A DNA stretch of 64,000 nucleotides, taken from NCBI RefSeq assembly GCF_024494685.1, contig NZ_JANHDM010000003.1, positions 186,001-250,000 on the forward strand, in the 5' to 3' direction. The stretch's first letter is position 1; the number at the start of each line of letters is the position of its first letter. Shown piece by piece: positions 29,164 through 50,634 of this stretch. The DNA comes from Halorubrum rubrum (GTDB lineage Archaea > Halobacteriota > Halobacteria > Halobacteriales > Haloferacaceae). Both the position numbers and the translations under genes were made by a program. The notes under the pieces are model-generated. The model did not search any database and was not told where the DNA came from. It saw only the letters and a program-made list of their open reading frames with translations.

Positions 29164-29747
29164 GCGAGCGGCCCCTTTTCACCGCCGTCGTCCTCGAAGC
29201 GGTTTATCGCGCAGCGTCGAACCGACGGCCATACGACGCCGAGTCGGAACGAGTCTGTACGCCGGACTCCGCTTCCTCGTTCTCGAACGACGCCGCTCGC
29301 GGACGCTCTCTACAGGTGACGTGACGAGCGATCGCTTGGACGGTGGCGCGCCGGTGACGAGGGTGAGGGGTGGGGCGCGGAGCGGTCGCGGTCGGATGAG
29401 ACTCAACGGGGCAGTCATCGGCGGCGTTGCCGCCGGCTGCCAGAGGCGCAGGAGTCGTCACGGCTGGGCCTTTGGCGGTAGTCACCGCGCTGGCAACTGC
29501 GTACAGCCGAGCGGCTGGGGCTTTGGACGTGTTTTCCCCGGCAAGAACCACTCCTCGGTCACACCGATCGCCGTCGAAACGACCGTGCCACTTGTCCTCA
29601 AAACGTAACGGCCGTTTCGGACGAGAACAGCCTCAAAGGGACGCCTTCGACGGAGCCGTCGTCGTCCGATCCGCGAATCACACCGACCGGCGTTCACGCG
29701 GGGGGTCGTCGGGACGACGGTTCATTCGCTCGGTTCGCTCGACCCGC
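29164..29747. other. 584-bp convergent intergenic region with repeat-element remnants
   Basis: This stretch lies between converging genes and has no convincing gene. Codon use and frames are poor. Within it, 29321-29530 shows modules shared with the 47.6-48.0 kb element, including GGCTGGGGCTTTGG and gtcaccgcgc. The rest (29164-29320 and 29531-29747) shows nothing I can name. Confidence 0.6.
29321..29530. repeat. Degenerate copy of a non-coding repeat family
   Basis: Two tandem versions of the motif GGCTGGGGCTTTGG occur, 29462-29475 (one mismatch) and 29513-29526, 51 bp apart. The first is followed by gtcaccgcgctggcaac as in the 47.9 kb copy (gtcaccgcgccagcaac). Upstream modules agcgatcgc, ggtggcgcgcc and actcaa-ggggcag occur in the same order in both places. 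Confidence 0.65.
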
Positions 29748-46600: not shown

Positions 46601-47626
46601 ATGAACCAGCTCGTCGACGGCGAGTGGCGAACCGGCGCGTACGAATCGACCGACGAGGAGGGGGCCTTCCAGCGCGGCGAGACCACCTTCCGGAGCTGGA
46701 TCGCCGGCAGCGACGTGCCCGAGCACGTCGACGCCGAGCCCGAGGAGCGCTTCCAGCCGGAGGCGGGACGGTACCACCTGTACGTCTCGTACGCCTGTCC
46801 GTGGGCCCACCGCACGCTGCTGGCGCGGTCGCTGCTCGGCTTGGAGGACGCGATCGGCGTCAGCGTCGTCGACCCGTGGCGCGGCGCGGACGGCTGGCAG
46901 TTCTCCCCGGAGAAGGCGGGGTGTACGCCCGACCGCCTCCACGGCAGCGACTACCTCCGCGAGCTGTACGTCGCGGCCGACCCCGACGCGACCTGCCGGG
47001 TGACCGTGCCCGTCCTCTGGGACACGGTCGAGGAGACGATCGTCAACAACGAGTCCCGCGAGGTCCTCCGCATGCTGACGACCGCCTTCGACGACCTCGG
47101 TAACGGCGTCTCGCTTCTCCCCGACGACCCCGCGGCACGCGACCGAGTGGACGAGACCATTACCGAGATCTACGAGCCCGTCAACAACGGCGTCTACCGC
47201 GCCGGCTTCGCCACCTCCCAGGCGGCGTACGACGACGCGATCGACGACCTCTTCGGCGCGCTCGACCGCTGGGACGAACACCTCGCGGACCGGCGGTACC
47301 TCGTCGGCGACTCGCTCACCGAGGCCGACATCTGTCTGTTCACGACGCTGGTCCGGTTCGACCAGGTGTATCACACCCACTTCATGTGCGACCGGCAGTA
47401 CGTCCACCAGTACGAGCACCTCTGGCCGTACCTGCGCGACCTCTACCAGACGCCGGGCGTCGCCGACACGGTGAACATGGCCCACATCGAGGAGCACTAC
47501 TACACGACCCACCCGGACGTGACCCCCTCGGGGATCATCGCGCGCGGCCCCGACCTCGACTTCGAGGCCCCCCACGACCGCGACCGACTCTCCGGATCGC
47601 CGCCGACGCCCCGCGCCGACGACTGA
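46601..47626 (+). CDS. Glutathionyl-hydroquinone reductase-like GST
   Basis: The 341-residue product matches the GS-hydroquinone reductase (YqjG/ECM4) subfamily of the glutathione S-transferase superfamily. The catalytic Cys is in SYACPWAHRTLL (Cys66). Further conserved parts are VVDPWRGADGWQF, PVLWDTVEETIVNNESREVLRM and GDSLTEADICLFTTLVRFD. Haloarchaea make gamma-glutamylcysteine rather than glutathione, so the thiol partner may differ. ATG 46601 follows a TATA-like gttatgg (46570-46576), about 28 bp upstream. Confidence 0.9.
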   Translation: MNQLVDGEWRTGAYESTDEEGAFQRGETTFRSWIAGSDVPEHVDAEPEERFQPEAGRYHLYVSYACPWAHRTLLARSLLGLEDAIGVSVVDPWRGADGWQFSPEKAGCTPDRLHGSDYLRELYVAADPDATCRVTVPVLWDTVEETIVNNESREVLRMLTTAFDDLGNGVSLLPDDPAARDRVDETITEIYEPVNNGVYRAGFATSQAAYDDAIDDLFGALDRWDEHLADRRYLVGDSLTEADICLFTTLVRFDQVYHTHFMCDRQYVHQYEHLWPYLRDLYQTPGVADTVNMAHIEEHYYTTHPDVTPSGIIARGPDLDFEAPHDRDRLSGSPPTPRADD

Positions 47627-48129
47627 GCGAGGACCGTATCGGCTCCGTCGTTGAGACGTGTCGTTCCGGTCGCGGTCAGTGTAGACGAAGGAGCGAGCGA
47701 TCGCCGGAGCGGTGGCGCGCCTCCGAGCGAGCCATCGGCTCGCGAGGAGCCCGCGAGGGACGCCGCGAACGGTGCGAGGTGCGAACGAAGTGAGCACCTC
47801 GGTAGCGAGCGGTGAAACCGCGAGCAGTGAGCGACGAGGCTGGGGAGGTGTGAGGTGCGGTTGCGGGCGGGGGGGACTCAAAGGGGCAGCCACGAGGACG
47901 AAGTACGGCGCAGCAAGGACCGCAGGAGCGAACGAAGTGAGCGACGAGGACCGAAGCAAGCCGCGCGAGTCCTCGTGGCTGGGGCTTTGGCGACGGTCAC
48001 CGCGCCAGCAACGATCCTCTTCTATTCATCCCATTTCCCACCGAAACACCCATCCAATACGCACTCGAACCGTATCGGGCGTTTCACGACGTCAGTGTCC
48101 GAAAACAGGACGTCGACGGATCCTCTATC
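47627..48129. other. 503-bp convergent intergenic region with repeat element
   Basis: This lies between converging GST and RND genes. It contains a structured, apparently non-coding element (about 47687-48014) with inverted repeats and repeated 15-mers. The last about 110 bp before the RND stop are AT-richer, with no identifiable gene. Frames that cross the element are Arg/Ser-rich and run into the RND 3' end, so I do not call them genes. Confidence 0.65.
47687..48014. repeat. Non-coding repeat element with inverted repeats
   Basis: A 13-bp perfect inverted repeat (cagccacgaggac at 47887-47899 and its complement at 47969-47981) encloses 69 bp. A smaller stem cgaggtgc/gcacctcg (47775-47782 and 47794-47801) has an 11-nt loop gaacgaagtga. 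The 15-mer gcgaacgaagtgagc occurs twice (47781-47795 and 47928-47942). GGCTGGGGCTTTGG (47977-47990) is shared with the 29.4-29.5 kb copy. Confidence 0.75.
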
Positions 48130-50634
48130 CTACCGTCCGCCGCGCTCCGCCTCGCCCTCCTCCCGAAGCGTCGCCTCCAGCCCGAGGCCGACGCGGGAGC
48201 CGTAGCGGTCCCAGACGACCACCAGGGAGGGAACCAACACGATCGAACAGAGGTACGCGTAGAACACGCCGAGCGCGAGGAGCGCGCCGAACTCCTGGAT
48301 CAGCGGGATCACGGCGAGCCAGAGCACGCCGAGGCCGGTGACGGTCGTGAGCATGCTCCCGGTGAGCGCGCCGCCGGTGCCGCCGATGGTGACGTCGAGC
48401 GCCTCCTGAAGCGGCGCGCCGCCCGTGTACTCGTCGACGAACCGGTGGACGAAGTGGACGGTGTAATCCACCCCGAGCCCGATGGACACGGAGAGGATCG
48501 GCGCGTTGATCGGGGTCAGCGGAATGTCGAGGAGCCACATCGACCCGGCCAGGAGCCCGACCGTCGCGAGCACGGGGACGAGGTTCAACACGCCGTACAC
48601 CGCCTTCCCCTCCAGATATCGGTAGGATAACATGAGGAACGCCGCGGTGAAGACGAACGCCGCGATCAGGCTCCGGATCGCCGACTCGAGGAGCAGGTCG
48701 ATCACGGCCTCGTTGACGACGAGCTGGCCGGTCGCGACCGCGTTCAGGGGGGTCCGGTCGGCGAGCTCCCGGACGTCCGCGACGGCCTGCGCGCTCTCGA
48801 CGCCGGGCCGGATGGTGTAGTCGATGCGGGCGCTCCCGCGGTCGGCCGCGATGTACCCGCGCGCCCGCTCCTCGTCCGAGGAGTCGAGCAGCGCGTCGTA
48901 CACCTCGTCGACGTTCCGGTCGGGGACGCCCGTGCCGAGCCGGTCGTTCCGCTCGACGAGCCGACGGAACTCGGGGTCGGTCTCGGCGCGCTCCTCGATC
49001 ACGGTGACGACGCTCGTGCTCTGCGCGCGGCGCTCGTCGGTCGTCGCGAACGTGTCCGGCGGGTTCCGCGTGGTCCGGTCGATGAGCTCGAGCGAGTCGT
49101 CGTCGCGGACCGACTGGTCGACGTACAGCGTCACCGACCCAACGAAGTCCTGGTCGAACTCCTCCTCGAAGAGGGTGAGCACGTCGAGGAACGTGTACTC
49201 CGTCGGCGCGAGCGGCTCCGGAAGCTGGCTGTACGTCTCCAACCGGTCCTCGTCCGGGAAGAACGCCTCCTCGGAGAATTCGGTGTCGACGCCGGTGCCG
49301 TACGCGCCGCCGAGCGCCCCGCCGAGGAGCACGACGACCACGACGAGGACCGGCGCGACCCGCGAGAGGTCGACGCCCACGTGCAGGACGCGGGAGAGCC
49401 GCGACCCGCCCGTCCCGAGCGGCGTCGAGCCGAACTCGGGGATCGGCAGCCGCTCGCGCCACCGGTCGACGAGCACCTTCGCGGCCGGGAGGTAGACGCC
49501 GAAGACCACCAGGGTGAACACCATCCCCACGGCGGCGACGATCCCGAAGTCGCGGTTCGGGTCGAACGGGCTCACGACGTTGGCGATCAGGCTGACGACG
49601 GTCGTGATCGTCACGAGCAGGAACGCGATGAACAGCTGGTCGGTCGTCGTCCGCATCGAGTCGCCGATCCCGCCCCCGTCCATCCGCTCCTCGCGGTACC
49701 GGTTGATGATGTGGATGCCGAAGTCGATCCCGACGGCGACGAGGAGCGGGAAGACGGTGACGAGCGAGTCCGAGAAGGGAATGCCGGCGTACCCCATGAA
49801 CCCGAACGTCCAGAGGACGGACACTCCGAGCGCGGAGAGCCCGAGCGCCATGTCGATCGGGTCGCGGTAGGCCAGAAGGAGGAACAGCAGGATGAACAGG
49901 ATCGCCGCGGGAAAGACGATGACCGCGGTGTCGGTGAGCAGCGCGTTGATCTCGCTTTGAAGGATCCCGTCGCCGAAGAGGATCGCGTTCTCGCCGGCCT
50001 CCATTCCCGGCACGGAGTCGACGACCGCGACGCTCCGGACCTGAAGCGTCTCGACGCGCGCGGTCGTCGCCGCCTCGGGCACGTCGTAGGTGACGCCGAC
50101 GATCGCGCTGTCGGCCTGCTGGGCGGTCGGATTGTAGTCCGTCGACACCTGCGCGGCCACCGAGCCGGACTCGTCGGCGGCCTCGATCGCCGCGGCGAGC
50201 TCGGTCGGCGTCGCCGCCGCGACCGCGTCGCGCTGTTCGCCGGGCGTCTCCGCCGACGGGTCGAGCTGGCGGGCGACCGCGTTCGCGTGGCTCGACGTCG
50301 ACCCGACGCGGAGCGTCGAGCGCGACTCCAGTCTGTCCTGCGTCTCGAGGATCCGGATCAGCGCGTCCCGCGAGAGGACGTTCCCCTCGGTGACGATCAC
50401 CTGCGCGGAGGTGGCCGAGCCGCCGATCGAGGACTCGAACTCCTCGTCGATCTCGTCGAGCGCCTGCTGGGCCGGGATGTCCTGGGTGAACTGGTCGGCT
50501 CCCGCGGACGTCGATATCGCCGTGACGCCGCCGAGCGCGACGACGCTCACGAGGAGGAACGCGACGACCACGGCGACCGGCCGACCGGTGGCGAGCTCGT
50601 TGACGCGCTCGACGACCCGGTCGGCGGCGGTCAC
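48130..50634 (-). CDS. RND/MMPL-superfamily exporter
   Basis: This 834-residue protein has the duplicated RND topology: a first helix then a large extracytoplasmic loop (about 45-230), five helices, and the same again in the second half. Conserved helix-4-like segments are VGIDFGIHIINRYREER (about 316) and GLGVDYTVHFVHRFVDEY (about 745). It probably exports a hydrophobic compound or lipid using an ion gradient. It uses a GTG start whose upstream region contains two direct-repeat pairs. It follows the COG1361 surface protein gene, with which it forms a haloarchaeal pair. Confidence 0.9.
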   Translation of the reverse strand: MTAADRVVERVNELATGRPVAVVVAFLLVSVVALGGVTAISTSAGADQFTQDIPAQQALDEIDEEFESSIGGSATSAQVIVTEGNVLSRDALIRILETQDRLESRSTLRVGSTSSHANAVARQLDPSAETPGEQRDAVAAATPTELAAAIEAADESGSVAAQVSTDYNPTAQQADSAIVGVTYDVPEAATTARVETLQVRSVAVVDSVPGMEAGENAILFGDGILQSEINALLTDTAVIVFPAAILFILLFLLLAYRDPIDMALGLSALGVSVLWTFGFMGYAGIPFSDSLVTVFPLLVAVGIDFGIHIINRYREERMDGGGIGDSMRTTTDQLFIAFLLVTITTVVSLIANVVSPFDPNRDFGIVAAVGMVFTLVVFGVYLPAAKVLVDRWRERLPIPEFGSTPLGTGGSRLSRVLHVGVDLSRVAPVLVVVVVLLGGALGGAYGTGVDTEFSEEAFFPDEDRLETYSQLPEPLAPTEYTFLDVLTLFEEEFDQDFVGSVTLYVDQSVRDDDSLELIDRTTRNPPDTFATTDERRAQSTSVVTVIEERAETDPEFRRLVERNDRLGTGVPDRNVDEVYDALLDSSDEERARGYIAADRGSARIDYTIRPGVESAQAVADVRELADRTPLNAVATGQLVVNEAVIDLLLESAIRSLIAAFVFTAAFLMLSYRYLEGKAVYGVLNLVPVLATVGLLAGSMWLLDIPLTPINAPILSVSIGLGVDYTVHFVHRFVDEYTGGAPLQEALDVTIGGTGGALTGSMLTTVTGLGVLWLAVIPLIQEFGALLALGVFYAYLCSIVLVPSLVVVWDRYGSRVGLGLEATLREEGEAERGGR

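Follow-up and report, generated by a model that had tools for sequence, protein, structure and literature searches.

Which kind of element occupies the non-coding DNA between two convergent genes of Halorubrum rubrum, and to what extent it is a structured sequence, a mobile one or both, is the question raised by the locus examined here, which belongs to a stretch of 64,000 nucleotides (contig NZ_JANHDM010000003.1, positions 186,001 to 250,000) hereafter called the window. The original prediction for 47687-48014 was that of a structured haloarchaeal element, either mobile or present in many copies. The repeats on which it was founded are all present: the 13-bp perfect inverted repeat CAGCCACGAGGAC / GTCCTCGTGGCTG (47887-47899 and 47969-47981, enclosing 69 nt) is nested in a pair of 21-nt arms (47879-47899 and 47969-47989) with 86% complementarity, the 8-bp stem CGAGGTGC / GCACCTCG (47775-47782 and 47794-47801) closes the 11-nt loop GAACGAAGTGA, and the 15-mer GCGAACGAAGTGAGC occurs both at 47781-47795 and at 47928-47942. 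The module said to recur at 29.46-29.53 kb is equally real, as an exact GGCTGGGGCTTTGG at 29513 and, with one difference, as GGCTGGGCCTTTGG at 29462. The neighbouring genes are convergent, as announced, and the element exists, but its proposed extent was too short, the whole unit covering about 47641-48123. A protein-coding gene was rejected, in keeping with the non-coding assignment: the copies differ by length-variable or entire hairpins, by indels and by compensatory changes, and share no conserved open reading frame.

According to the aligned copies, each copy is built from two modules, R2 and R1 (Table 1). R2, of about 100-150 nt and often located upstream of R1, carries the conserved block GAGGCTGGGGAGGCGTGAGGTGCGG besides a closing helix and two hairpins. 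R1, of about 120 nt, is edged in its family form by YTSAAAGGGGC and GGGGCTTTS on either side of a long stem, and proceeds from CTCAAAG through GGG, the 13-bp stem and a series of short GA-separated helices up to a triloop, to come back via GGG to CTTTG. The duplicated 15-mer corresponds to the tip of this chain of helices, GC-GA-AC(GAA)GT-GA-GC, in which tandem GA/GA internal loops lie between the short helices.

Table 1. Features of the element, its neighbours and a second copy, in window coordinates.
Feature	Position	Strand	Remarks
Glutathione S-transferase-like gene	46601-47626	+	
Whole long-form unit (predicted borders)	47641..48123	+	5' tail + R2 + R1 + 3' tail
Left terminal inverted repeat (putative), degenerate	47641..47658	+	GGCTCCGTCGTTGAGACG; consensus GGCTCYGTYGARRTCCTC
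5' tail	47675..47704	+	GTCAGTGTAGACGAAGGAGCGAGCGATCGC; long-form copies only
R2 module	47711..47863	+	closing helix CGCGCC/GGTGTG, two hairpins, conserved GAGGCTGGGGAGGYGTGAGGTGCGG; model match 88.7 bits
R2 hairpin 1	47721..47749	+	outer 3-bp helix, tandem GA/GA, inner helix
Hairpin of the original prediction	47775..47801	+	CGAGGTGC (GAACGAAGTGA) GCACCTCG; tip GC-GA-AC-gaa-GT-GA-GC
Conserved single-strand block	47836..47860	+	GAGGCTGGGGAGGTGTGAGGTGCGG; nearly invariant in two alignments of copies
R1 module	47871..47990	+	covariance model R1 match 125.6 bits, E 4.5e-21
GGG/GGG internal loop, conserved	5' side 47884..47886, 3' side 47982-47984	+	28/29 own-genome copies
R1 tip mini-hairpin	47928..47942	+	GC-GA-AC(GAA)GT-GA-GC
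3' tail	47991..48105	+	in long-form copies
Right terminal inverted repeat (putative), degenerate	48106..48123	-	reverse complement GGATCCGTCGACGTCCTG
MMPL-family transporter gene	48130-50634	-	
Second, degenerate copy	29396..29526	+	weak R1 29396-29475 + tandem GGCTGGGSCTTTGG unit (29462, 29513)

The outcome that would have spoken against the original prediction, a single-copy sequence free of covariation, is not what was found. The genome of H. rubrum itself holds roughly 60 to 90 copies, retrieved by BLASTN as 62 pieces and by the covariance model as 92 matches; the 15-mer GCGAACGAAGTGAGC is encountered 33 times and GGCTGGGNCTTTGG 34 times, counts that exceed chance because each pattern read backwards is encountered 0 times. 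Genome-wide statistics rest on model matches and individually retrieved stretches. At a larger scale, R1 is distributed in 218 of 292 Halobacteria genomes, including all 35 of the same genus, and reaches full counts of 4 to 127 in selected genomes outside the genus. In a phylum-wide sample it was detected in 30 of 247 genomes, every one belonging to the order Halobacteriales, and the other classes of this sample gave no match. Among the matches listed for a scan of the whole collection are Halorubrum, Haloarcula, Haladaptatus, Natrinema, Haloparvum and other Halobacteria; the single match to a member of the Bacteroidales, with 16 bits, was dismissed as chance. Within the genus, R2 amounts to 92, 120 and 144 copies; outside it, R2 is scored weakly by the model, although inspection by eye reveals R2-R1 composites in other families. 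A viral or plasmid origin was rejected, R1 finding 0 matches in the viral contigs and phages searched and 2 weak ones in the plasmids searched. A literature search for these repeat sequences yielded no paper describing them. Within the sources searched, the family is undescribed and consists of class-wide, structured, interspersed repeats, which in the richest genomes fill tens of kilobases of intergenic DNA.

With respect to structure, the stems covary strongly and the non-canonical GA/GA loops are nearly fixed. In 28 distinct copies of R1 from the own genome, 98.0% of the cells are paired and double-change cells number 125, against 36 in shuffles which leave the relatedness of the sequences in place; sliding the partner by 1-3 columns lowers pairing to 28-43%. 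The corresponding values for R2 are 93.6% and 93 against 28. In R1 sequences of other genera and families (69 distinct ones), 97.3% of the cells are paired, 29 of the 35 pairs are doubly changed and double-change cells reach 537 against 148 in shuffles, although this alignment was fitted to the model and its absolute values lean towards structure. Part of the double-change signal could also reflect a small repertoire of old hairpins that have been shuffled, instead of independent substitutions. At the four R1 sites concerned, GA/GA occurs in 20, 24, 29 and 28 of 29 own-genome copies; the opposite strand would read TC/TC there, so that the conserved fold is that of the sense strand. The covariation and the nearly fixed mismatches show that the fold of one strand is kept by selection while its helices change sequence. 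The family possesses the covarying, conserved secondary structure by which structured RNA families are recognized; the covariation provides a defined fold and a model usable for annotating haloarchaeal genomes, and the near fixation of the GA/GA and GGG/GGG loops leads one to expect a binding partner.

It is improbable that the repeats are neutral palindromes, the arms of which would be kept complementary by template switching with no selection on the fold. Double changes lacking G-U intermediates and hairpin-wide replacements are what such a process would produce, but template-switch repair would erase the GA/GA and GGG/GGG loops, which are nearly invariant, and the unpaired blocks have been conserved from one family of the class to another.

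The explanation which we consider probable is that of a class-wide haloarchaeal family of non-coding repeats endowed with a selected, strand-specific fold, spreading non-autonomously and packaged, for a Halorubrum subset, between terminal inverted repeats. In the R1 and R2 units, one strand would fold into a series of short helices with tandem G.A pairs between them, and the copies would disperse through intergenic chromosomal DNA by means of functions supplied from elsewhere. The subset of Halorubrum, enclosed by 18-bp terminal inverted repeats, may be moved by a transposase acting in trans, and the folded single strand, either RNA or single-stranded DNA (ssDNA), is most likely recognized by a protein of the host or of the element.

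Depending on the evidence considered, this strand resembles RNA or ssDNA. A functional non-coding RNA, in which the copies are transcribed, the R1/R2 fold serves to bind a protein or to stabilize or process transcripts, and multiplication is secondary, is a tenable reading of somewhat less than even likelihood. The RNA nearest-neighbour model returns the covariation structure of R1 exactly, both as minimum-energy and as centroid fold, the sense-strand fold beats 200 of 200 shuffles (z = -4.4) and its energy is -55.2 vs -47 kcal/mol for the other strand; moreover, conserved unpaired blocks combined with variable stems are typical of structured RNAs. Such an RNA acting within mRNAs should nevertheless show a biased orientation relative to the flanking genes, and none was seen: a simple, rough codon-position gene finder, on which the intergenic calls also rest, placed the copies between convergent (16), divergent (9) and co-directional genes (++ 9, -- 13). 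The share of G-U pairs among paired cells is 2.8%, compared with 9.1% in the predicted tRNAs of another species (G009), a set which includes doubtful predictions and molecules that carry functional G-U pairs; in R2 alone the share is 6.4%, mostly due to one invariant position. The Rfam covariance models, searched with 47200-48400, gave no match at E <= 1, which likewise speaks against this reading. The HEARO/omega RNAs of IscB and TnpB elements are also multi-copy, structured and tied to mobile DNA, but the R1/R2 copies examined differ from them in having no associated gene.

The scarcity of G-U pairs would rather suit a folded ssDNA, the hairpins forming on the sense strand when it is exposed during replication, repair or uptake, and being copied, exchanged or inverted by a structure-specific nuclease or recombinase; this reading, too, is held tentatively, as a serious candidate short of an even chance. 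GNA triloops and GNYA and GNAB tetraloops are specially stable in DNA. GNA triloops cap R1 in most sequences (46 of 69 class-wide) and GNYA and GNAB tetraloops occur elsewhere; these loops, the en bloc replacement of hairpins at orthologous sites, the inversion of a stem segment at one locus (L056) and the extra double hairpins nested in the arms are in line with it. Conversely, the Vienna DNA parameters miss the inner fold, element-rich genomes lack the Y1/HUH transposase family and no replication-strand bias is apparent. On the chromosome of G009, the 101 R2 matches used lie 57 on the plus and 44 on the minus strand, in 58 runs for 50.7 expected and with random gaps, so that a replication-linked orientation or a regular spacing was rejected for this genome. 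As to RNA or ssDNA, the fold, the G-U share and the loops point in different directions. Rather unlikely, in its full form, is the proposal that the functional state of R1 is a folded ssDNA with helices stacked through tandem sheared G.A pairs, capped by GNA loops and swapped by an enzyme between dispersed sites; if true, a structure-specific enzyme copies and swaps hairpins across such sites.

Turning to mobility, about 40% of the own-genome copies, the window copy included, carry tails that terminate in GGCTCYGTYGARRTCCTC and end with 18-bp terminal inverted repeats. In a regular-expression count of 49 own-genome copies, both tails were found in 11 and neither in 30, and the 8 discordant copies possess both on reading; a hand-made consensus of the 3' tail gives 40 own-genome matches. 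The clearest case is a homologous copy, C18:236683-237287, bounded at both ends by 18-bp repeats with <=3 mismatches to GGCTCTGTTGAAATCCTC and flanked on both sides by an exact 8-bp target duplication, CAATTTGT, which demonstrates that this copy has moved. The same repeats enclose C5:101189-102143, with the 8-bp duplication TACAACTA on each side and, as cargo, a gene for an LTD-like lipoprotein scoring below Pfam's cut-off. We take these repeats and the 8-bp duplication to resemble those of IS6-family elements. Between the pairs of repeats at C5, C3, C7, C11, C19 and C24, other sequence is enclosed and no recognized transposase was found, and mobilization of the carrier would presumably occur in trans. 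The long form, as represented by the C18 unit, shows the terminal inverted repeats and target-site duplication of a MITE, and the core-only copies, to which the 30 copies devoid of tails belong, do not. About 60% of the own-genome copies, as well as those viewed in other genera, have no such carrier, which counts against the probable explanation given above.

The window copy is a decayed long form. Its ends consist of degenerate terminal inverted repeats with the arms GGCTCCGTCG / CGACGGATCC: on the right, 15 of 18 positions fit at a constant offset of about 135 nt, and on the left 11 of 18 fit the consensus. Because this left score is near background, the left border is placed by homology with C18:236683-237287 and by alignment to the G009 orthologue, and should be regarded as probable; no target duplication is visible at this copy. 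Both halves of the original prediction prove partly right: its multi-copy, structured element agrees with the copy number, the range in the sampled genomes, the intergenic sites and the covariation, and its mobility holds directly for the C18 carrier, that of the other copies being deduced from their distribution.

Units bounded by GGCTCTGTTGAAATCCTC that contain unrelated genes occur at C5:101189-102143, C3:124778-126612 and C7:57148-59421, where the cargo consists of the LTD-like lipoprotein, a PBP-like protein and probable membrane proteins.

Among known systems, the ERIC/IRU, RU and REP/BIME/REPIN repeats of bacteria are intergenic imperfect palindromes of about 40-130 bp, present in many copies, with paired inverted arrangements, nested insertions and turnover between species, all of them traits common to the haloarchaeal family. 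The latter is unrelated in sequence to ERIC/REP-type repeats, and differs by its strand-specific fold, its tandem GA pairs and its GGG/GGG loop. Mobilization of REPIN/BIME-like repeats by a RAYT-type (Y1) transposase is very improbable and was rejected as largely refuted. The copies are intergenic, short and palindromic and have a conserved foot of the GTGG type, and R1 outside Halorubrum is often arranged as two inverted hairpins with a short spacer (14 head-to-head pairs vs 1 tail-to-tail at the loci examined, spacers mostly of 19-31 nt), but PF01797 is absent from the element-rich genomes G009, G258 and G136 (59-120 copies) and abundant in the element-free G014. Unlike REP/REPIN, the family is restricted to the Halobacteria among the genomes sampled and has no link to RAYT.

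MITEs of haloarchaea have been described for Haloquadratum (PMC3119063). The Halorubrum long form is like them in its terminal inverted repeats, the 8-bp target duplication of one copy and the lack of a transposase, and unlike them in its interior, an R2+R1 core which elsewhere, other genera included, is mostly devoid of such repeats. The SMR and PATE repeats of Haloquadratum walsbyi are short and transposase-free, some nested in each other, PATEs deriving from IS605-type ends and SMRs being defined by their own ITRs, according to the consulted sections of the same source (PMC3119063). R1 and R2 differ from them, as they are described there, by a covarying fold, a distinction between descriptions and not between sequences.

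The comparison of the own genome with G009, the flanks of which are about 90% identical, indicates how the copies are renewed. Of the testable copies, 5 of 6 in the own genome and 5 of 9 in G009 are shared. With about half or more of the copies in common at orthologous sites, turnover is slower than expected of an active transposon. No copy occupies the G009 site syntenic to 29396..29526. In shared copies, flanks and conserved blocks align but entire hairpins have often been substituted, which points to an exchange of whole hairpins between copies, probably by gene conversion; this swapping would lend itself, as a natural system, to the study of gene conversion or of the processing of ssDNA in polyploid archaea. 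Clean empty sites were not found for core-only copies, absent sites holding other, replaced sequence, and the dispersal of the copies devoid of a carrier is suggested by copy number and by presence/absence differences between species.

Some variants of R1 were also encountered. Its 5' foot GTGGGAYTGAA, found class-wide, is presumably similar to the 3' terminus of the CRISPR repeats of haloarchaeal type I-B systems, possibly by coincidence. The 3'-most part, GGCTGGGGCTTTGG with the tail, forms a tandem unit of 51-54 bp at G000:C11:140266, 140320 and 140374, as at 29462 and 29513 of the window. At L056 (G000:C18, near 5212), the sequence enclosed by the stem arms of R1 has an inverted orientation, which places its GA/GA loops on the other strand. 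A double-hairpin cassette of about 62 bp, CGTGGTT-hairpin-TCATCA-hairpin-AACGAC, with variable and perfectly paired stems, is nested in R1 arms in several genera (L023, L214, L375, L398, L419, L473). A second one, GCCGGCGGC..GCCGCCGGC TGCCA GAGGCGC..GCGCCTC GCTGC, lies within R1 or R2 at L007, L019, L293, L335, L351, L355, L389 and L422, and at about 29420-29450 of the window.
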